Virus record (IMG/VR): IMGVR_UViG_3300022540_000277
Coordinates: 1-31,334 of that record
Reading direction: 5' to 3' (one strand)
Length of the DNA stretch: 31,334 nucleotides
Origin: a virus
The notes under the pieces are model-generated. The model was not told the origin of the DNA, made no database searches, and was given only the letters and a program-made list of their open reading frames with translations. Shown here piece after piece: positions 2,239 through 31,334 of this stretch. Position numbers and translations under genes: made by a program. Positions within the stretch are counted from its first letter, which is position 1, and each line of letters starts with the position of its first letter.

Positions 2239-2487
2239 ATGAAAATGAAACACAAAAAAGAAATGAAAGATGACATGTTAGCTAAAGTACTCTCATCTAT
2301 TATCGACAGCACTGGTGATACTACAGAAGATAGAATGAAGAAGAAAGGTATTAAGGTCATTGAATTAAATATACACGATCTTAATATGGATGAAGACGAA
2401 GAACATGACAATTATGACGAAGAAGGTATCGAATCAGATGACTTACTTGGAAAATTAAAAAAGAAAGCAAGAAATAAAAAGGGGTAA
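2239..2487 (+). CDS. Small highly charged hypothetical protein
   Basis: This encodes 82 residues, preceded by AAGGAAATAAT. The N-terminus is basic (MKMKHKKEMKDDM), the middle is strongly acidic (LNMDEDEEHDNYDEEGIESDD) and the C-terminus is basic again (KLKKKARNKKG). There is no hydrophobic segment and no recognised domain. It sits between the putative lysis pair and the virion connector gene and is probably co-transcribed with both. Candidate roles include an assembly chaperone or scaffold-like helper, but the sequence alone does not decide this. Confidence 0.7.
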   Translation: MKMKHKKEMKDDMLAKVLSSIIDSTGDTTEDRMKKKGIKVIELNIHDLNMDEDEEHDNYDEEGIESDDLLGKLKKKARNKKG

Positions 2488-2490
2488 TTT

Positions 2491-3399
2491 ATGAGTAATC
2501 ATTACACAACTACCGATTTAGTTAATAGCTTAAAACGTAGGATTTCAATACCTACCTCGCAAGCAACATACACAGATCAAGAACTGGTAGACTTTTTAAA
2601 CGATGAGTTTGAAGGCACCATTGTTCCTTTAATATCAAGTATTAGAGAAGATTTCTTTATCAGCTCAACAGACTTTACGGTTACAAATTCAACATCATCA
2701 TTTGCTATTCCTTCAAATGCGGTTGGTCAACGATTACGCGATATTGTATTAGTTGATAATGCAGGTGGTAATGAACATTTAACAAACCTGCCTCGATTGA
2801 GCTTAGAACAAATATCATCAGTTAGTGGTATTGGCGTATCTGGTTTTTATCTAGAAGGTAACACAGTTAAACTTTACCCAGTTGAAGGATGGGATGATAC
2901 ATTGCGTATGTATTATTTCAAACGACCAAACAAATTAGTACTTGTAAATAAAACGGGTAAAATATCATCAATTGCTGGTGATGTTGTCACATTAGAAAGT
3001 GTGCCTAGCAGTTGGACAACTGCGACTATTGTAAATGTCATCACACCAGATCAACCATTTTCAGCTACAGAAAACTTAACAATTTCACTAATTAGTGGTA
3101 ATGATGTCACTTTAAGTTCAACAACTGGCTTAGCTGCCGGTGACTATGTAGCTGTTCAAGGTGAATCACCTATTGCACAAATGCCAAGTGAGGCCAATCA
3201 ATTATTAATGCAGGCAGTTAAGGTTGAAGTATCAGATGCTATGGGCGACGAAGAAATGATTATTTCAGCAAAAGCTAAATATAAACAATTGCAAATTCAT
3301 TTAATGAAAGCACTTACACCTAGAGTAGACGGACAAGTTAAAAAAGTAGTAAGTAGAAATAACGTATTCTCACAAGGACTTAATAGAGGGCATTACTAA
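2491..3399 (+). CDS. Head-tail connector / adaptor-like virion protein
   Basis: This encodes 302 residues with ribosome site AAAAAGGGG upstream. The N-terminus (YTTTDLVNSLKRRISIPTSQATYTDQELVDFLNDEF) matches the helical start typical of phage adaptor proteins that dock under the portal. It is followed by a beta-rich region (IPSNAVGQRLRDIVLV, GFYLEGNTVKLYPVEGW, MYYFKRP). Residues ~150-230 hold an extra beta-rich module (VVTLESVPSSW, NDVTLSSTTGLAAGDYV). The C-terminal helices (EANQLLMQAVKVEVSDAMGDEE) complete the adaptor-like layout. It lies directly before the stabilisation/tail gene, whose start codon shares one base with this stop. The family is recognised from layout and context; the exact equivalent (P22 gp4-like or other) is not certain. 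Confidence 0.65.
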   Translation: MSNHYTTTDLVNSLKRRISIPTSQATYTDQELVDFLNDEFEGTIVPLISSIREDFFISSTDFTVTNSTSSFAIPSNAVGQRLRDIVLVDNAGGNEHLTNLPRLSLEQISSVSGIGVSGFYLEGNTVKLYPVEGWDDTLRMYYFKRPNKLVLVNKTGKISSIAGDVVTLESVPSSWTTATIVNVITPDQPFSATENLTISLISGNDVTLSSTTGLAAGDYVAVQGESPIAQMPSEANQLLMQAVKVEVSDAMGDEEMIISAKAKYKQLQIHLMKALTPRVDGQVKKVVSRNNVFSQGLNRGHY

Positions 3400-13377: not shown

Positions 13378-13725
13378 TTACCATGAATAATTGTCCCAAC
13401 GTGATAAGCAATATTCAAGCTCGGTTTGATTGAGCGTGAATTGCAGTACTTTATTACTGTTGTATTCTACCACATCATCTTTCAGCTTTTTCAACCATCC
13501 GTACTCCGACAGGTACTCCCCGTCATCTGTAAGTCTTACACAATCGTTTGTTGGCTTGTAATTGCTTAATCTCGGTAGTACTGCTGCTATATAATTTTTA
13601 ATGTGTTCTTGTTTGTTGACCACTGAATTGACCTCTTTACCGTTAGTGAAGTTTAACAGCTTAGCCATATCGGACTTCTGTTTTAGCATGTATCTTAATT
13701 TGTTACTTGCTTCTATGTGATTCAT
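13378..13725 (-). CDS. Hypothetical protein of the replication operon
   Basis: This encodes 115 residues; the ATG overlaps the TGA-type end of the GIY-YIG gene (4-base overlap), so it is translationally coupled. The sequence is mixed helix and strand (MNHIEASNKLRYMLKQKSDMAKLLNF...VRLTDDGEYLSEYGWLKKLKDDVVEYNSNKVLQFTLNQTELEYCLSRWDNYSW) with no membrane segment. No domain is recognised. Coupling to a putative homing-type nuclease suggests it may be part of the same mobile cassette or an unrelated early protein; the sequence does not decide. Confidence 0.65.
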   Translation of the reverse strand: MNHIEASNKLRYMLKQKSDMAKLLNFTNGKEVNSVVNKQEHIKNYIAAVLPRLSNYKPTNDCVRLTDDGEYLSEYGWLKKLKDDVVEYNSNKVLQFTLNQTELEYCLSRWDNYSW

Positions 13726-14165
13726 TTTAATTTACTCGATGTTAGTGCTTTTCTAAAATCTGCTGCTAATTGATTTATTTCTTGTTGCTCCATATCGATT
13801 TCTTCTATTTTCATTTTAGCTTTAATTTTTTTACGCCTGTTAGTGGCTCGTTTGCGCTCTAAGGTCTTTAAGTCACCCCCTTTCATGTTTGAAAGATCGA
13901 CACCTTGTTGTACTAACATAATCATGTGCGTGTATTCTTGGCTGTTGTAAATTTCATATTTAAGCACCTCAACTAAATCCCACTTAAGCTGTTTTGCTTC
14001 AATGGCTCTGATAAATTTATATACATCTGTATTTTTTCTCCATTTTGCAGAGTTGTGAGCTCTTTTACGCTGTGCTAAATTGCCTGTTGCGCCAACATAG
14101 AAAGGGATTACTTCCCCTGCTGATGTTGTGTATTCTAGTTGGTATACATATCCGTTATCTTTCAT
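13722..14165 (-). CDS. GIY-YIG nuclease, probable homing-type endonuclease
   Basis: This encodes 147 residues from the ATG at 14165, chosen because AAGGAGAAGTAAA lies directly before it; an in-frame ATG further upstream (14186) precedes that ribosome site. The N-terminal domain shows GYVYQLEY (residues 5-12, GIY element), FYVGATGNLAQRKRAH (22-37, YIG element with the following basic residues) and a candidate metal-binding Glu in NSQEYTHM (E77). The C-terminus is a highly basic region (KTLERKRATNRRKKIKAKMK) that could contact DNA. The family makes single- or double-strand cuts and includes free-standing homing endonucleases in phages. It sits just downstream of the polymerase gene, a common place for such elements. 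Confidence 0.75.
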   Translation of the reverse strand: MKDNGYVYQLEYTTSAGEVIPFYVGATGNLAQRKRAHNSAKWRKNTDVYKFIRAIEAKQLKWDLVEVLKYEIYNSQEYTHMIMLVQQGVDLSNMKGGDLKTLERKRATNRRKKIKAKMKIEEIDMEQQEINQLAADFRKALTSSKLK

Positions 14166-14446
14166 TTTACTTCTCCTTTCAACCATTGTTTAACTTTAAA
14201 AAGATCTGGGTTGTTTACAGCTTCGTCAATTAATTTAGTTTGTAATCGACAGTATTTTTTATCTTTTTTATCCCATTCTTTAAATCTACGTTTGTATTCG
14301 TCGTCCCAATCAAAGTCATCGTTCCAGAAGCATGAATCATCTATTTTATAAAGTTCGGACCACATAGCTCTAAGTTTTGATAACTTTTTGTATTCCTTAC
14401 TCTCCTCAACGACTAACTCTATTTCTAATCTAGTCTTCCAAATCAT
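14162..14446 (-). CDS. Small charged helical protein between polymerase and nuclease
   Basis: This encodes 94 residues. The start overlaps the end of the polymerase gene by 17 bases, with TGGAGATG placed about 8 bases before the ATG, and its stop overlaps the nuclease start by 4 bases (ATGA). The sequence is rich in Lys, Glu, Asp and Trp (LVVEESKEYKKLSKLRAMWSEL, WNDDFDWDDEYKRRFKEWDKKDKKY) and probably forms long helices. There is no recognised family. Tight coupling suggests a replication or nucleic-acid related function, but nothing in the sequence proves it. Confidence 0.65.
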   Translation of the reverse strand: MIWKTRLEIELVVEESKEYKKLSKLRAMWSELYKIDDSCFWNDDFDWDDEYKRRFKEWDKKDKKYCRLQTKLIDEAVNNPDLFKVKQWLKGEVK

Positions 14447-16259
14447 CTAAGACATCTCCACACTCGCTTACCATATCCCAAATTGTTTGGTCGTTTGTAT
14501 CCCACTTATCTGGCGTATAACCTTTTTCGTTTGTATAAACTTTCGTATCACTTCTAACATCAATACCAATCATACCTAAACCAGTGAATTTCATAACAGC
14601 TTCTATTACCTCTATATCTGATTGTTCTTTACTTACAGTAGAGTTAAAATAAAATGCATCGTGTTGTGAGCATAGCACAGGTCCGACTTCCCCAGCTTGC
14701 CACAAATCATAAAAAGCAAATGTCGCTAGCCGCATCATAACCGCTCCATGTGATTGGCTAGGGAAGTTTAATAATTGAGTTCGTCTGGAGTTTTTACCCA
14801 CCCAGCAAACCCAGTTATCCGAAGTCTCAACCCAACCTTTAATTTTCGCTTGTTTTACTTCATTGTTAATCCAGTCCCAGTAAACTTTGAAATATTGTTT
14901 ATGCCAGTGATAAACTTCTTTTGCTTGAACACTAGCTTCTATAAGACTCCAGCCGTCTGATTTAAGTAAATTATAAAAGTCCCTACTCAAACTTTTTAAA
15001 CCTTTACCGTAAGCTAGAGCTAGCTGAAGAGTTTTAAACATATCTCTTTCACGCGGGTGTGTTTTCTTAGTACCGTCTTCAGGTATAGCACCAGACATTT
15101 TACCTAATGCTAAATAAACATCACCTGACTTATAAGCTGCTTCTAAACGTTTATCACCGCTTAAAAACGCTGCGATTGCGATCTCTTGTTGGCTCCAGTC
15201 GGACCCGATCATAATTTCTCCTGTGTGTGGAGTTATAGATTTACGCATCCAGCTAGGTAGGTTCAAAAGATACCCTCGTTTTGGCGCTAATCCGTTACGC
15301 CCAGTTTTTGCAGCATATCCAAAAGTTGTAGGTTTTATATATCCGTTAACAATGTCTTTACTCATGTCTTTACTGTTAAGCGTAGCAAGACTTTTAATAG
15401 CTCTCCTTAAAGGCTCAACCCTTGGATAGTCTAATTCTAATTTTTTTAAGTAGTCACTTTTTAAACACGGTGCTCCTGTTTCTGTTAACAACCATTTAGA
15501 CCATTTATTCTTTTTGATAACATCTAAGACTAAATTTCTTTTTAAAGACCATTTACCTCGTTTATTTTTAACATAACAGAATCTCCAAACTGGTGGTAAA
15601 GCTTTAACGATAGATGTTTTTACTTCTTCTTTATGCTTATAAATGTTTAGCAACTTGTCTTTGGCAACTGGGAATCCTTTACTAGCAAAATCCATCTCAG
15701 TAGCTTTACGCATGAAGTTACCTCTGTGTAAAGCATGAGCCATTTTAAAAGGGTGTTTCTCTTCTTTATGTATAGCTACAATCTTTTTAAACAGTGCTGG
15801 TAAATCCTCTAAATCACTTTCGCAGTATGTAGCAATCTCCAGCCATTCATCCTCAGTCCATATTTCGTTATCTAGGATTAAATCTCTCATTGCGTCTTTA
15901 TGCGCTTTTGTTTCTGTAACCTTCTTTTTCAATAATGCTCTTACAGAATCTAACATACTACCGCTAGGTGCAAAATAATCATCGTGTGACATAGTAATCA
16001 TTTTACATTCAGCCATTAAGTCCACACATTTAATGTTTCTTACATCAATACCTAAACGTAATAAAGAATTAATTTCAGCTGCTATAGCGTAAGACACAAA
16101 GATTTCACTTTCGTTTTGTTTAATATAGTCTGCCATTTTTTGTGTGTCAATATCATCTCTAAAGTCAAAATAACTGAGTTCTTTTTCTGTTTTAGTTACT
16201 TTACGCGCCATGCACATAAGCACTTGTCTGTCATTGTACTCAAAATCAAAATAAATCAT
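14430..16259 (-). CDS. Family A DNA polymerase with proofreading domain
   Basis: This encodes 609 residues. The N-terminus carries a 3'-5' exonuclease-type domain: MIYFDFEYN gives the DxE motif (D5, E7) and YCESDLEDL the Y-x3-D motif. The polymerase motifs follow: motif A SDWSQQEIAI (Asp354, Glu359), motif B R405-xxx-K409-xxx-L413-xxx-YG, and motif C QHDAFYF (His533-Asp534). The fingers position equivalent to E. coli Phe762 is Leu413, and the Glu usually following the motif C Asp is Ala535. It replicates the phage genome and lies in an operon with an SF3 helicase and a clamp-loader-like ATPase. Its start abuts the helicase stop by sharing one base. Length is typical of short phage Pol A proteins. 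Confidence 0.93.
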   Translation of the reverse strand: MIYFDFEYNDRQVLMCMARKVTKTEKELSYFDFRDDIDTQKMADYIKQNESEIFVSYAIAAEINSLLRLGIDVRNIKCVDLMAECKMITMSHDDYFAPSGSMLDSVRALLKKKVTETKAHKDAMRDLILDNEIWTEDEWLEIATYCESDLEDLPALFKKIVAIHKEEKHPFKMAHALHRGNFMRKATEMDFASKGFPVAKDKLLNIYKHKEEVKTSIVKALPPVWRFCYVKNKRGKWSLKRNLVLDVIKKNKWSKWLLTETGAPCLKSDYLKKLELDYPRVEPLRRAIKSLATLNSKDMSKDIVNGYIKPTTFGYAAKTGRNGLAPKRGYLLNLPSWMRKSITPHTGEIMIGSDWSQQEIAIAAFLSGDKRLEAAYKSGDVYLALGKMSGAIPEDGTKKTHPRERDMFKTLQLALAYGKGLKSLSRDFYNLLKSDGWSLIEASVQAKEVYHWHKQYFKVYWDWINNEVKQAKIKGWVETSDNWVCWVGKNSRRTQLLNFPSQSHGAVMMRLATFAFYDLWQAGEVGPVLCSQHDAFYFNSTVSKEQSDIEVIEAVMKFTGLGMIGIDVRSDTKVYTNEKGYTPDKWDTNDQTIWDMVSECGDVLDDLED

Positions 16260-17932
16260 TAAAAAAGCTCCTCGTCAAAATCGTCGTCATCACTGTCGTC
16301 TTCTTGTACAGTGTCTCCTGTCATCGCTTTTAATTTAACACCGTGGTAGTAGTTTCTGTGTTGTTTTTCATTTCTCACTACTTCAACACCTTGTATTTTA
16401 AGTAACCACGCTAACCAAGCATCTAAGTCTTTAGTATTTGTTAAAGTCTCGTCTAAACTCAAAACAGTTTTGATTTTGCTTATCTGCATTTTTTCTGTTG
16501 GGTCTAGTGTAAAGTATTCGTCGAATATTTCTTGGAAAACCACTTTCGCTTGTTTAGATAATAATCTAACTTTTTTCTTTGTAGAATCTTTTAGAATTAT
16601 TTCTTCATGGTCTTTACACAAGCTCTCGTAACAGGCTTTAGCGTATGTTAAGAAACCTGGTAGTTCAGTTAGGTAGTCATCAGCAATGTTCGGGTCTTTA
16701 TCTCCCTCGAACGGTTCAATATAAGATAAAGCTAATCTGCTTAAGTACCAGTTATCGTCTAAAACAGCTGGCTCGAAGTTAGATAAAACAACAGCTCTAG
16801 CTTCAATGACAACAGATTCAGTAGCTTGAAATTTCTCTTCAGATGGTGTAACGTCTCTACCTCCGCCCGATAACATTTTAAACATTTCAGTTTCTAACAC
16901 TCTAGGGTTGTTACAATCTGGGAACACTACTAGTCTAGCCCCTACAAAAGAAGATGCTGTAAACTGGTTACCACCCCCTATTTGTTTTGAAGTGATTGCT
17001 TTAAAACCTTTATCAATCCCAAATAACTCATCACCTAAAAATTTTAACAAAAAGGATTTACCTTCCTCACCCTCTTTACCGCAGATCCAAAAGACTTGAC
17101 GTCCTTTATACTGCCTGCTATAAATACCCCATATATACGCTGCAAAAGCGTCACCCTCGGACATTCTGTCAAATACTGATTTCATTTTAGGGAACGGTAC
17201 TTCAGTGTCTGGTTCGTGTTGAGACCAGTGTAAAGCCCATACTTCTTTTCGAGAAGGGGCTAAGTCTATAATAACTGGGTTGTTATCGCTATCAACACCC
17301 GGTAAAGCCTCGTCCACAATCCCGTAATCTAAACCTAACTGGTCAGTGGAGAAGCGCCATCTTTTATATAACTCTTCTAAAATACCTGGTGGGCAACTAG
17401 AGTTACCTCTCTTTAAATTTTGAGCCATTGTTGCTAGCATTTCGTTTTTAACAGCTGATTCGTTACCTTTTCTTCGTTCTATGATCTTATTAACAGGGTC
17501 TATTAAACGGAACAGATCCGCATTAGCTTTCTTTATATACCATTCTAATTTACCCATACGGTGAGACATATCGCCTAAAGTCAGTGCAACAGATGCTTTT
17601 ATGTCTTCTGGTACACGAGGTATTTTATCTGGACCGTCTGCTTTATTCCATTCAGAGAAATCAAAGTTAAAAGAATTTTTATTAACTGTTGTTTTTGGCA
17701 CTGGTTTCATTTTCTTTGGTGGTGGATTTTCTAAGATTTTAATTAATCCGTCTGAATAACCTCTATATGTCTTTCTATCTATGCATTCGTCTAAAAGATC
17801 AGCAGTTACTTCTAAACCCTCACCCCAGTAATACTGGATAATATCTAGTAAGTCTTTTGGTTCTTTAATGTCAGCTAACACAGTAGTTATTTCTGTTTTT
17901 AAAGTTTCTTTTTGTTTTTTAGTTAGTTTCAT
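16259..17932 (-). CDS. SF3-type replicative helicase (D5-like)
   Basis: This encodes 557 residues. The ATPase core shows Walker A GKEGEEGKS (residues 285-293), Walker B RLVVFPDCNN (Asp339) and the SF3 motif C ARAVVLSNFEP (Asn385). MLSGGGRDVTPSEEKFQA between B and C is characteristic of D5-like helicases. The N-terminal ~250 residues contain a D5N-like region (DYGIVDEALPGVDSD) but no clear primase motif, so priming may come from the host or another protein. The C-terminus ends in a strongly acidic tail (QEDDSDDDDFDEELF), which could recruit partners. It overlaps the ATPase gene upstream by 4 bases. SF3 helicases usually melt and load at an origin, fitting the repeats at 18905-19059. Confidence 0.9.
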   Translation of the reverse strand: MKLTKKQKETLKTEITTVLADIKEPKDLLDIIQYYWGEGLEVTADLLDECIDRKTYRGYSDGLIKILENPPPKKMKPVPKTTVNKNSFNFDFSEWNKADGPDKIPRVPEDIKASVALTLGDMSHRMGKLEWYIKKANADLFRLIDPVNKIIERRKGNESAVKNEMLATMAQNLKRGNSSCPPGILEELYKRWRFSTDQLGLDYGIVDEALPGVDSDNNPVIIDLAPSRKEVWALHWSQHEPDTEVPFPKMKSVFDRMSEGDAFAAYIWGIYSRQYKGRQVFWICGKEGEEGKSFLLKFLGDELFGIDKGFKAITSKQIGGGNQFTASSFVGARLVVFPDCNNPRVLETEMFKMLSGGGRDVTPSEEKFQATESVVIEARAVVLSNFEPAVLDDNWYLSRLALSYIEPFEGDKDPNIADDYLTELPGFLTYAKACYESLCKDHEEIILKDSTKKKVRLLSKQAKVVFQEIFDEYFTLDPTEKMQISKIKTVLSLDETLTNTKDLDAWLAWLLKIQGVEVVRNEKQHRNYYHGVKLKAMTGDTVQEDDSDDDDFDEELF

Positions 17933-18600
17933 TTGATTAAACCTCCTTGTATTGCCGCATCTAGCGTTTGTAGTGTCTTACGAATAGATGGGAAGTTTCG
18001 AGCAATTATTTTAGTAACCTTATCAGTTAGCTCGATATTTTCATTTTTTAATATAGTTTCGAAATATTCTATAAACTCAGCTTGATCTAAATCCTCGTAG
18101 TCAATAGCTAATACTCGGTTGCTATCAAACAATTGAGGGTTCTCTAGCTTTAATTTAGGTAAATTATTGTCAGTAAAGATAAAGAAAGTGTTGTGATTAT
18201 ACTTGTCAATTACACCCCTTAAAGCTTCTCTAGCTTGTTTACCAGTTACTGAAATTTCATTACCGATTACTAGTCTATACGAAGTAGTTAAGTGCCCTAA
18301 AGGGTCGTGTAAATCGTCGCTAAGTTGTTTTATTTTTGCTAAGCCCTCGCCTGCTGAATCTATTTCAAATACTTTATAGTAATTAAAAAGAGATTTTAGA
18401 AGGTTAATAAATTGAGTTTTACCGGTACCGCCTGTGTCACTGTGTAGCAATACTCCGTAATATGGAAACTGCCCAGAGTTTAAAAGCTCTTTAAGAATCT
18501 TTCTAGCTGCTGTTTTTCTTGGTAGTAAGATGGTGTCTTCTGTTGGTTTGTATTTGTCAATAAGTCTAGTGCCTATTGAGTTAGTTGATATAGTTTTCAT
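17929..18600 (-). CDS. Clamp-loader-like AAA+ ATPase (T4 gp44/RFC-like)
   Basis: This encodes 223 residues and is the first gene of the replication operon. Walker A is HSDTGGTGKTQF (Gly57-Thr62). The Walker B position is YRLVIGNEIS, with Asn114-Glu115 where the family has Asp-Glu. Then AREALRGVIDKYNHNTFFIFTDNN gives sensor 1 (about residues 139-146), and LFDSNRVLAIDYEDLDQAEF (about 157-176) aligns with the SRC arginine-finger region and start of the lid domain. The order and spacing match clamp loader small subunits rather than helicase loaders, although a helicase-loader role for the adjacent SF3 enzyme is an alternative. No sliding clamp or second loader subunit is recognisable in the window. 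Confidence 0.75.
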   Translation of the reverse strand: MKTISTNSIGTRLIDKYKPTEDTILLPRKTAARKILKELLNSGQFPYYGVLLHSDTGGTGKTQFINLLKSLFNYYKVFEIDSAGEGLAKIKQLSDDLHDPLGHLTTSYRLVIGNEISVTGKQAREALRGVIDKYNHNTFFIFTDNNLPKLKLENPQLFDSNRVLAIDYEDLDQAEFIEYFETILKNENIELTDKVTKIIARNFPSIRKTLQTLDAAIQGGLIK

Positions 18601-18612
18601 GTTGTGATGTTT

Positions 18613-18690
18613 GCACCAAAAATGGTGCCCTATAGTTTGAAAAAACTGGTAGTAAAATAATTAGAAGCGAGAACAGTCCGACTATAGGGC
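18613..18690 (-). promoter_or_regulatory. Structured leader of the replication operon
   Basis: Downstream of the promoter at 18801-18829 the leftward RNA has a ~195-base leader. It contains GCCCTATAGT (18627-18636) and its exact reverse complement ACTATAGGGC (18681-18690), a 10-bp stem closing 44 bases, and then GCACCA/TGGTGC (18613-18618, 18623-18628), a 6-bp stem with a four-U loop next to the start codon. The two stems share two bases and could be mutually exclusive. A short ORF (ATG at 18725, 31 codons) ends inside the upstream stem. Regulatory function is inferred. Confidence 0.5.
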
Positions 18691-18800
18691 GTAAAAGGTT
18701 TCTTGTTATTTTTATCTACTATCATTTATTACTGCGTTTTTCTGGCGCGTACGTAATATTGATTTCTCTTTGTAACATATTTATTTATGCTAAGTTAACT

Positions 18801-18829
18801 ATTATAATATATGTAGTTAATAATGTCAA
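18801..18829 (-). promoter_or_regulatory. Perfect sigma70 consensus promoter for the replication operon
   Basis: On the minus strand TTGACA (18829-18824), 17 bases and TATAAT (18806-18801) match both hexamers exactly with optimal spacing. Transcription should start near 18794 and read leftward into the clamp-loader-like gene. This shows early expression by host RNA polymerase. Confidence 0.9.
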
Positions 18830-18904: not shown

Positions 18905-19059
18905 TGCGCAAACGGTGCGCAAACGGTGCGCAAACGGTGCGCAAACCGAGAAGTTGCGCAATTATTTTGAGCTATTTCATAAGTTTTACTTATGACCGCT
19001 CATAAGTTTTATCTATGTTTAGACTAAGTATAAGAAATCTGCTCAAAATAATTGCGCAA
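18905..19059. other. Probable replication origin with iterons and 19-bp inverted repeat
   Basis: Four head-to-tail 11-base repeats TGCGCAAACGG occupy 18905-18948 (the last ends ACCG). Directly after lies TTGCGCAATTATTTTGAGC (18954-18972), whose exact reverse complement is at 19041-19059. The 68-base interval between arms holds a small hairpin (CATAAG/CTTATG, 18978-18994) and a repeat of CATAAGTTTTA (18978-18988, 19001-19011). The palindrome TTGCGCAA occurs at 18954, 19052 and 19222. An 11-base period places repeats on one face of the helix. The region is AT-rich otherwise, non-coding, between divergent operons and adjacent to replication genes, all typical of an origin bound by an initiator. 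Confidence 0.65.
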
Positions 19060-19160
19060 AAAAAGTGCTGATTTTTTAATATTTTGTAAAACCGTCATTT
19101 AAACGCCTTTAGAGCTATAAACTCTATTTAACTTTGTAAGAACAATAATAACGTAGTAAC

Positions 19161-19205
19161 TATAATAAATAAAAAAAATAAATAATATACAGTACTAGTA
19201 CTGTA
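19161..19205 (+). promoter_or_regulatory. Candidate early promoter -10 element and 18-bp palindromic operator
   Basis: A perfect TATAAT lies at 19161-19166, but the best -35-like hexamer (TTGTAA, 19134-19139) is 21 bases away, so the promoter is only tentative. TACAGTACTAGTACTGTA (19188-19205) is an exact 18-base palindrome placed 22-39 bases downstream of that element, a typical repressor position. Together with 18601-19260 it makes up the 660-base gene-free region, in which I see no convincing gene. Confidence 0.45.
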
Positions 19206-19245
19206 GTAGTATGCTACTGTTTTGCGCAATTTGTGTTTTAAACCA

Positions 19246-20750: not shown

Positions 20751-20878
20751 TTAAATTACATATTTTGGTCCCGAAAATACTACGAGATGAATTTTAAAGC
20801 ATAAATAACAATAGCTACCCAGTAACTGGATGCATAACTTAACAGAGCTACCACAAGATGCTCAAAAGGATAAACAAA

Positions 20879-21205
20879 ATGGCAAAATCACCTTACATCG
20901 CTCTCCCCTTTGATTACGAATCAGCAAAATTAATATGGTTAGAAACACACAAAGCCTTAAATGGTTTTGATGCAACTTGGCGTCATCAGCACAATATACC
21001 AATGAAGGGTAAAACTGTTGATCTTTTCAATGAAAAAACACTTTCATTCGCACTGGTTAAAGCTCCAGGTGGTTGGCGTGTTGCAAGTATCACAACTCAA
21101 AGTGATAAAGTAATAAAACAAGAATTCACAGAAATAGAATATAAGAACTTTGCACTCGAACGCATGATCAGTATGATCTCAAATAAATTAATGGAAGAAG
21201 AATAA
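20879..21205 (+). CDS. Hypothetical early protein
   Basis: This encodes 108 residues from ATG at 20879 (MAKSPYIALPFDYESAKL), which has AAAAGGATAAACAAA upstream; the ATG at 20858 precedes that site. A mixed fold is suggested (HKALNGFDATWRHQHNIPMKGKTVDLFNEKTLSFALVKAPGGWRVASI), followed by a C-terminal helix. No family is recognised. Its stop shares one base with the next ATG. Confidence 0.65.
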   Translation: MAKSPYIALPFDYESAKLIWLETHKALNGFDATWRHQHNIPMKGKTVDLFNEKTLSFALVKAPGGWRVASITTQSDKVIKQEFTEIEYKNFALERMISMISNKLMEEE

Positions 21206-29775: not shown

Positions 29776-31334
29776 ATGAGTACAACTTTAACAATTAACG
29801 GTGTTGGATATCCTTATCCAACAGACGGTGATCCAGCAGGTTGGGGCGATGACGCAACTAACTGGGCAACTGCGATTACAAATGGCGTATTACAAACAAC
29901 CGGCGGAACACTAACAGGTGACCTTTCGATTACTGGTAATTTAGAAATAGATTACACAGCATTAGCTAACGGTGACCACGGTATTCATTTATCGGTAGAC
30001 TCATCAACATTTTCTCAAGTCAATGCATTTGAAATAGATTATATTACTGGTGTAATGGGCGCCGGTATAGAACAAAATGCTATCGCAATCAACATTGACC
30101 AATTACTTGCAACTGATGGTGAAATATTTGGATTGCAAGTAACATCCACTGAAGGGTCAGCAGATGCTTACGGAATGAAAGTAGGTATTGGTGTAGGTCC
30201 AGTTCATCAAACAACAGGTACATTCGCTAATCCAACAACAGGTACGAATAACACAACTGCAACCGATGTCCCAGCAATGATTGATGGTAGCGCTGGCACA
30301 ACAACAAGTATAATGGTAGCTGATAATGATTATATTATTATTGGAGCAGCAGCCGCATTTACAGAATTAGAAATAGTATTAGATACTGTTGCAAGTGGAG
30401 CTGGAGCCGCACCTACATTTTGGTATTCGATTACTGGCACACATCAATTCACACAATTCTTCCCAACAGACGGCACAGATGGATTCACTCATACTGGTAT
30501 TATAAGCTGGGATGCTGATGATTTGGTTAGTCATGTAGCTGATGGAGTTACTGGCACATTTGATATTAAGATTATACGAACAAGAAATACATTAACAACA
30601 ACTCCAATTTTAGATTATGCAAAAACAGCAGCAACATTAGTTTGTCTTTGGGATGAGAACGGTGATATTGAAGTAAGAAATCTACGTTCAGGCTTCAATG
30701 CTACGATTGGCAGAAACGATTATGAAACTTGGCACGGAGATTACTCATATATCCAACTTGGTGGCAACGCAGCATTTGCAGCAACTAAAACAAGTGGTGC
30801 TGGTAATATATTGTATAATATGCAAAATGTGTATATCAATGCAGCAGGCAGCTTTGAGTTTCAGGAAAGTGATGAAGCAAGTTACAGCTATCAATCATCT
30901 GGTTTGCATATCCAAAGAAGTATTGCAGCAGGGACAGCAGGGAATACAGCTGGCTCATTTAATTTTATTACAGTAGCAGGCTTGAGTAGTAACGGCGCTG
31001 AAGTTTTAAGTGTTGGTAAGTCAAGTTTAGTAGCACATGGCGGTAATTATTCAGCGGTGCAAGTAGGTGGCAATTCAAACTTAATATCAAGTCAAGCAAC
31101 TGGTGCCAGTAAAGAATTTGATATTGCTCAAAATACTTACTGGGATGGTAGTGCTTGGAAATATATTTCGACCGACCAGGCAGGTTATTTGCGATTATCC
31201 GACGGAGATTATCTATTCAGAAGTGCTGCAAGTGGGACAGCAGGAAATAATGTTTCTTGGACAGATGTAGTGAAATTAGGACTTAGTTCAAATGGTGCTG
31301 AAGTATTAAGTGTTGGTAAGAGTAGTTTTGAAGC
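29776..31334 (+). CDS. Tail fibre protein, N-terminal part (continues at base 1)
   Basis: The ATG at 29776 begins STTLTINGVGYPYPTDGDPAGWGDDATNWATAITN, a start found in many environmental phage fibres (a virion-attachment segment with .P..GD..WGD.AT.WA). It is followed by LQTTGGTLTGDLSITGNLEI. A jelly-roll-like central region spans about residues 150-290 (AAAAFTELEIVLDTVASGAGAAPTFWYSITG). From residue ~300 there is a degenerate repeat unit, then a full 100-residue unit (30982-31281). The frame remains open to the end of the window, and codon phase agrees with base 3 of the left end. The junction makes the complete product about 1100 residues. Confidence 0.85.
   Translation, partial: MSTTLTINGVGYPYPTDGDPAGWGDDATNWATAITNGVLQTTGGTLTGDLSITGNLEIDYTALANGDHGIHLSVDSSTFSQVNAFEIDYITGVMGAGIEQNAIAINIDQLLATDGEIFGLQVTSTEGSADAYGMKVGIGVGPVHQTTGTFANPTTGTNNTTATDVPAMIDGSAGTTTSIMVADNDYIIIGAAAAFTELEIVLDTVASGAGAAPTFWYSITGTHQFTQFFPTDGTDGFTHTGIISWDADDLVSHVADGVTGTFDIKIIRTRNTLTTTPILDYAKTAATLVCLWDENGDIEVRNLRSGFNATIGRNDYETWHGDYSYIQLGGNAAFAATKTSGAGNILYNMQNVYINAAGSFEFQESDEASYSYQSSGLHIQRSIAAGTAGNTAGSFNFITVAGLSSNGAEVLSVGKSSLVAHGGNYSAVQVGGNSNLISSQATGASKEFDIAQNTYWDGSAWKYISTDQAGYLRLSDGDYLFRSAASGTAGNNVSWTDVVKLGLSSNGAEVLSVGKSSFE
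30982..31334 (+). repeat. Tandem coding repeat, unit 1 and start of unit 2
   Basis: The unit at 30982-31281 (100 codons) begins LSSNGAEVLSVG and ends AASGTAGNNVSWTDVVKLG. The next unit starts at 31282 and equals the unit starting at base 3. The region before 30982 holds a more divergent unit. Confidence 0.85.
31280..31334 (+). repeat. Terminal direct repeat, right copy (55 bp)
   Basis: Exact copy of bases 1-55. See the left copy for interpretation. Confidence 0.95.

Follow-up and report, generated by a model that had tools for sequence, protein, structure and literature searches.

Can a clamp-loader AAA+ module have a use of its own once it is bare of everything that joins such subunits together, and how does a 31-kb phage that carries this module run a replisome of SF3 helicase and family-A DNA polymerase (PolA)? 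Clamp loaders are described as conserved across life, with five collar-joined subunits serving a ring clamp; the collar is the domain that joins the subunits into a pentamer. The window (the whole stretch of DNA analysed here, a virus record of 31,334 bp) encodes at 17929..18600 (-) a gp44/RFC-type AAA+ ATPase of 223 aa that has no collar. With no recognisable clamp and with residue changes that are intolerable in T4, this natural collarless subunit, known from a single uncultivated sequence on which the case rests, offers a test case for the repurposing of clamp-loader ATPases, and makes the first of the two questions a testable one. Our preferred, tentative reading is that a clamp-loader ATPase has been repurposed as a collarless, ATP-controlled factor for replisome or origin assembly; somewhat more doubtful is the specific form of this reading, in which the protein would be a stand-alone, ATP-switched assembly factor for the SF3 helicase and PolA at an iteron origin, acting without collar, clasp or clamp.

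The ATPase gene is an intact open reading frame that occupies exactly 17929-18600 on the minus strand, and profile and fold matches place its product in the gp44/RFC-type AAA+ family, in agreement with the sequence-only reading. The PHROG_168 profile ('clamp loader of DNA polymerase') matches residues 13-220 (E=2.8e-23), and in a sequence search T4 gp44 is the best PDB match (E=1.2e-7), below which only RFC subunits are found until a chance match at E=0.89. Pfam Gp44_lid (PF21328) matches the C-terminal part at E=8.6e-6 with 26.3 bits against a cut-off of 27, and clears the cut-off in the whole-record search (28.8 bits); the top NCBIfam ranks are taken by RFC small subunit and DnaX models. Among cultured phages, 1,403 records match the ATPase, each at <60% identity and at ~21-30% among the matches listed. 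Where the cultured relatives among the matches listed carry an annotation, they are T4-like or jumbo phages, most with genomes well above 100 kb, and the short records appear to be partial sequences of T4-like or jumbo phages. Identity to the T4-like and jumbo homologues is 24-32% across residues 4-222. No close homologue was found in the IMG/VR, cultured-phage and plasmid sequences searched (the query for relatives among viral contigs being a two-row gp44 alignment), which makes the ATPase an orphan. Its descent from the phage gp44/RFC clamp-loader lineage, with far-reaching divergence, is well supported by these comparisons.

An AlphaFold2 model of the ATPase, built on a 26-row alignment (pLDDT 84.6, pTM 0.79), has its best Foldseek matches among RFC and T4 clamp-loader subunits (E about 1e-12), and VIA-align scores human RFC chain C at Z 19.7 and T4 gp44 at Z 18.3; as gp44 relatives went into building the model, its fold supports the family without being evidence separate from the sequence. 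Residues 10-223 of the model superpose on residues 8-221 (of 320) of T4 gp44, that is, on domains 1-2 only. RFC small subunits (RFC3/RFC5 and archaeal RFCS), which rank highest among the structural matches (Z up to 19.7), differ from the ATPase in that they carry a collar and act with PCNA. The archaeal RFC structure 2chg (223 aa, TM 0.70 to the model) is of near-equal length to the ATPase, but it is a piece of RFC, titled domains 1 and 2, and no natural whole protein. The viral matches listed from BFVD are longer than the ATPase, with the exception of F2Y2Y6 (198 aa, unnamed).

The ATPase ends where the AAA+ lid ends: it can be aligned to its homologues up to residue 222 only, and the C-terminal collar columns are empty in the alignments. 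A profile search of the fetched loci returned 87 homologous ORFs, including the window's own ATPase gene; one of these (L119) is cut by the contig end and another (L097) lacks the N-terminus, and the remaining ~84 full-length homologues are at least 304 aa long and all have a collar. When all ORFs of the window were searched with a collar-only profile, no collar was found (best E=0.29); on the fetched loci the same profile recovered 86 collars as a control. The 3' end of the gene is not ragged, given that the helicase Shine-Dalgarno sequence (AAGGAGG, 17942..17948 (-), read directly) lies within the last ATPase codons and that the TGA and ATG of the two genes overlap as ATGA. As a source of the missing domain, other ORFs of the window, including the helicase N-terminus, were rejected on finding no match to the collar profile; the helicase of contig L006 also has an N-terminal region, yet no clamp-loader gene adjoins it. 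The abstracts and passages covered by our literature search contain no description of a collarless phage clamp loader. Both the loss of the collar and the loss of Gln118 (see below) had been overlooked in the sequence-only reading.

Residues of the active site were counted in 25 relatives, and the figures depend on the single MAFFT alignment used. Walker A, sensor 1 and the finger region follow one another in clamp-loader order, as had been noted from the letters of the sequence, and are found here as HSDTGGTGKT, FTDNN and NRV. In Walker A (DTGGTGKT, residues 55-62; 18415..18438 (-)), G58, G60, K61 and T62 are identical in 25/25 relatives, and Asn145 of sensor 1 (TDNN; 18163..18174 (-)), equivalent to T4 Asn139, is conserved in all 25. 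Arg162 of the arginine-finger motif NRV (N161-R162-V163; 18112..18120 (-)) corresponds to T4 Arg151 and is Arg in 25/25 relatives. The 'SNR' finger described earlier falls on the SRC motif in this alignment: the Ser of SRC, present in 23 of the 25 relatives, is replaced by Asn161. A HMMER pairwise alignment with gp44 sets the N161-R162-V163 stretch in a different register. Domain 1 of the clamp-loader-clade AAA+ type is present, as is a lid (PF21328, Gp44_lid) with a sensor 2 Arg (Arg207 in FPSIRKT; 17974..17994 (-)), again Arg in every relative (25/25).

In Walker B (RLVIGNE, residues 109-115; 18256..18276 (-)), Asp107 is replaced by Asn114, and Glu108 is kept as Glu115. The unusual Asn-Glu of VIGNE is real: the relatives have Asp at the Asp107 position (25/25), Glu at the Glu108 position (25/25) and Asp at the Asp110 position (24/25). 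Just past Walker B, Asp110 is replaced by Ser117, and the motif reads NExS (NEIS) as against DExD. Invariance of the Walker-B Asp is not complete: BF and GAP32, two jumbo phages, carry Glu-Glu at this site. Arg124 (18229..18231 (-)) occupies the position of T4 Gln118, the central coupler, which is Gln in 23/25 relatives. In T4 gp44, both Walker-B acidic residues tolerate zero substitutions, Asp110 tolerates only Asp or Glu, and His is the sole substitution tolerated at Gln118 (PMC8121543). In two collar-bearing gp44 homologues, L042 (868-1812) and L070 (8886-9818), the Gln118 position holds Leu or Met; Gln118 is therefore not invariant among phage clamp loaders. At the position of Phe97, a clamp contact in T4, the ATPase has Leu. 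This pattern of kept and changed residues suggests that the parts for ATP binding and inter-subunit sensing have been retained, and that the parts coupling ATP to clamp loading have changed. Overall divergence is high: at columns that are ≥85% conserved in the other sequences, the ATPase departs at 23 of 52, versus 11 for the worst other sequence, and in a maximum-likelihood tree of the AAA+ module, in which its placement is unsure, its end branch is 4.86 versus a median of 0.25 (~20x).

Profiles for gp45 (52 members), PCNA, the beta C-terminal domain and DNA_PPF gave zero matches among the window ORFs, which bears out the earlier observation that no sliding clamp is visible, although a divergent clamp could escape such searches: PF02916 also misses a 252-aa ORF near gp44 in contig L108 that is likely to be the clamp of that contig. 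Between 11.3 and 22.4 kb, there is no ORF >165 aa besides the ATPase, helicase and PolA; RB69 gp45 (gene 2393-3079) is 228 aa by comparison. A gp62 clasp was likewise not detected among the window ORFs using a 53-member profile. The ORF at 20858-21205 gave 10 bits (E=0.0054) over only 38 residues, and its homologue in contig L004 scores 0.8 bits; this ORF was therefore rejected as a chance match to gp62. With respect to the completeness of the record, an exact 55-bp terminal repeat (1-55 and 31280-31334) and a tail-fibre ORF that runs across the join suggest a circular, near-complete record; against this, the repeat belongs to a recurrent fibre motif, and the record may fall short of the full genome.

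A rival explanation is that the ATPase is still a clamp loader, which opens a clamp for PolA, be it the beta clamp of the host or a phage clamp that escaped recognition, with a collar supplied in trans or with none. Clamp-loader ancestry and the lid are consistent with this explanation, as are the Leu at the Phe97 position, which is tolerated in T4, and the capacity of profiles to miss divergent clamps (as PF02916 does in contig L108). However, neither collar, clasp nor clamp was detected, the replication region has no ORF >165 aa besides the three operon genes, and the loss of the Walker-B Asp and of Gln118 is intolerable in T4 (PMC8121543); we consider continued clamp loading unlikely. The ATPase is probably no longer a working pentameric clamp loader. 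A working clamp loader, as entertained in the sequence-only reading, does not agree with the missing collar, the undetected gp62 clasp and the lost Asp107 and Gln118; because collar, Walker B and Gln118 depart from the type, we do not file the protein as a clamp loader. This makes a clamp loader proper less likely, while some action resembling that of clamp loaders may persist.

The ATPase is encoded in a replication operon with the minus-strand order ATPase, SF3 helicase, PolA, 94-aa ORF, GIY-YIG ORF and 115-aa ORF, the ends of which overlap. The tight arrangement of the first three genes was correctly recognised from the sequence alone: the ATPase and helicase genes overlap by 4 bp (ATGA), and the helicase and PolA genes by 1 bp. 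The helicase (557 aa; 16259..17932 (-)) is of the P4 type (PF19263, E=5e-8; TIGR01613, E=2.4e-11); its ~220 N-terminal residues gave no match to primase or origin-binding domains of known type, the ORFs tested include no recognisable primase, and the structure model of the helicase (pLDDT 52) is too poor for use. PolA (609 aa; 14430..16259 (-)) matches PF00476 (E=2.3e-15) and has its relatives in contigs L005-L020, which make up the PolA family in IMG/VR. The remaining three ORFs span 13378..14446 (-), with the GIY-YIG endonuclease-like ORF at 13722-14186 (-) inside the operon. Judging from the overlap and the Shine-Dalgarno sequence, the ATPase gene is translationally coupled to the helicase gene. 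As the first gene of the operon, it is preceded by ~200 nt by a putative sigma-70 promoter (TTGACA-17-TATAAT, 18801..18829 (-)), a 12/12 match to consensus only.

Adjoining the promoter is a cluster of TGCGCAA iterons (18905..19229, strand not applicable), a candidate origin. Its elements are four tandem 11-bp copies of the TGCGCAAACGG iteron at 18905-18946, the palindrome TTGCGCAA three times over, and a perfect inverted repeat with 19-bp arms (18954-18972/19041-19059). The genome has 10 TGCGCAA sites, all of which fall within 325 bp, compared to at most four per 325-bp span in 500 dinucleotide shuffles. This region is a likely origin or regulatory region and may be a site of protein binding.

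According to the preferred reading, a gp44/RFC-type ATPase would have lost its collar and been reduced to a two-domain AAA+ module (domain 1 and lid). ATP would be bound via the kept Walker A, sensor 1 and sensor 2, and the kept arginine finger would permit transient association without a permanent collar ring. At the neighbouring iteron origin or on primed DNA, the ATPase may help to position or retain the SF3 helicase and/or PolA with which it is co-translated, after which slow hydrolysis (with the catalytic Glu kept and the Mg-binding Asp changed to Asn) would release the ATPase. The open frame, the good fold, the five ATP-site elements kept, the coupling to the helicase, the promoter and the adjoining iteron cluster all point to some function being retained; orphan status and the lack of the ATPase in phages with the same SF3-PolA pair weigh against the repurposing reading. 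Helicase loading, put forward as one option in the sequence-only reading, may be its role; SF3-PolA relatives do without the ATPase.

Related phages with an SF3 helicase and a polymerase of the same family (L005-L018, and Silvanigrella phage CP017838, which is also alike in portal, capsid, TerL and tail genes) differ from the phage studied here with respect to this gene: the clamp-loader-like ATPase is absent from the records of all 19 SF3-PolA relatives searched (0/19), and no other small P-loop ORF was found in them. In L006 and L007, the helicase and polymerase genes are adjacent as they are here, without a clamp-loader gene. The ATPase would thus have been added in this particular lineage to a helicase-polymerase pair that functions elsewhere without it, and the SF3-PolA pair needs no such factor in general. 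The close relatives recovered via TerL, helicase and PolA are two partial contigs, L004 and L005, neither of which reaches the ATPase position: L005, the closest by PolA (52%), has its helicase cut off at the contig start, which leaves that position uncovered, and the fetched stretch of L004 excludes the replication operon.

The absence of the ATPase from related SF3-PolA phages, the loss of the collar and of otherwise invariant residues, and the very long branch would all be expected of a decaying fragment of a captured clamp loader with little or no present function. Decay is nonetheless improbable in our view, as the frame is intact, the fold confident and the five ATP-site elements correctly placed, and the gene is coupled exactly to the helicase start with a perfect sigma-70 promoter match in front.

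The same promoter match makes the ATPase, as first gene behind it, probably early, as might suit a protein for host takeover or regulation, which would bring host replication to a halt by binding to the clamp, clamp loader or helicase loader of the host. A collarless subunit could serve as a dominant-negative decoy, and a precedent exists in phage proteins that block the AAA+ helicase loader DnaI (PMC4887207). However, translational coupling to the phage helicase points to a role in phage replication, and the ancestry is that of RFC/gp44 and not of bacterial DnaX, so that an interaction with bacterial partners would have to be a new property; there is only a slim chance of such a role.

DnaC/IstB/DnaI-type proteins are small collarless AAA+ proteins that adjoin the enzyme they serve, and DnaC-type loaders resemble the ATPase in size and in lacking a collar. 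They are AAA+ partners of helicases or transposases (see also PMC8213410; PMC11208146). That the ATPase, the gene of which adjoins a helicase gene, belongs to this or another AAA+ family is highly improbable, since the DnaC/IstB/DnaI type is of a different AAA+ clade, sequence profiles and Foldseek put only clamp-loader subunits on top (RFC and T4 gp44), and the C-terminal part matches Gp44_lid. DnaC/IstB-like chains, which may occur further down, are absent from the 50 best Foldseek and VIA-align matches and from the PDB sequence hits.

T4 gp44 and its T4-like and jumbo homologues (PHROG_168) share with the ATPase the AAA+ domain and lid, the order and spacing of motifs, the Arg finger and FPxxRKT; by contrast, the ATPase is without a collar, has NExS versus DExD and Arg for Gln118, and is found without detected gp62 or gp45 in a 31-kb genome with an SF3 helicase and PolA. 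If true, the stand-alone assembly-factor reading would represent a new functional class within the clamp-loader AAA+ clade.

By structural genes, the closest relative of the phage is L004 (IMGVR 3300022542_000099), with identities of 87% for MCP, 74% for portal and 70% for TerL. A distant relative, the Silvanigrella phage L003 (CP017838.1, a partial record), has portal, TerL, capsid, tail proteins and PolA in common with it at 22-30% identity. The operon leader (18605-18700), in which no clear Shine-Dalgarno sequence for the ATPase was found, holds a GCCCTATAGT/ACTATAGGGC inverted pair and, just ahead of the ATPase start codon, the hairpin GCACCAAAAATGGTGC (18613-18628).
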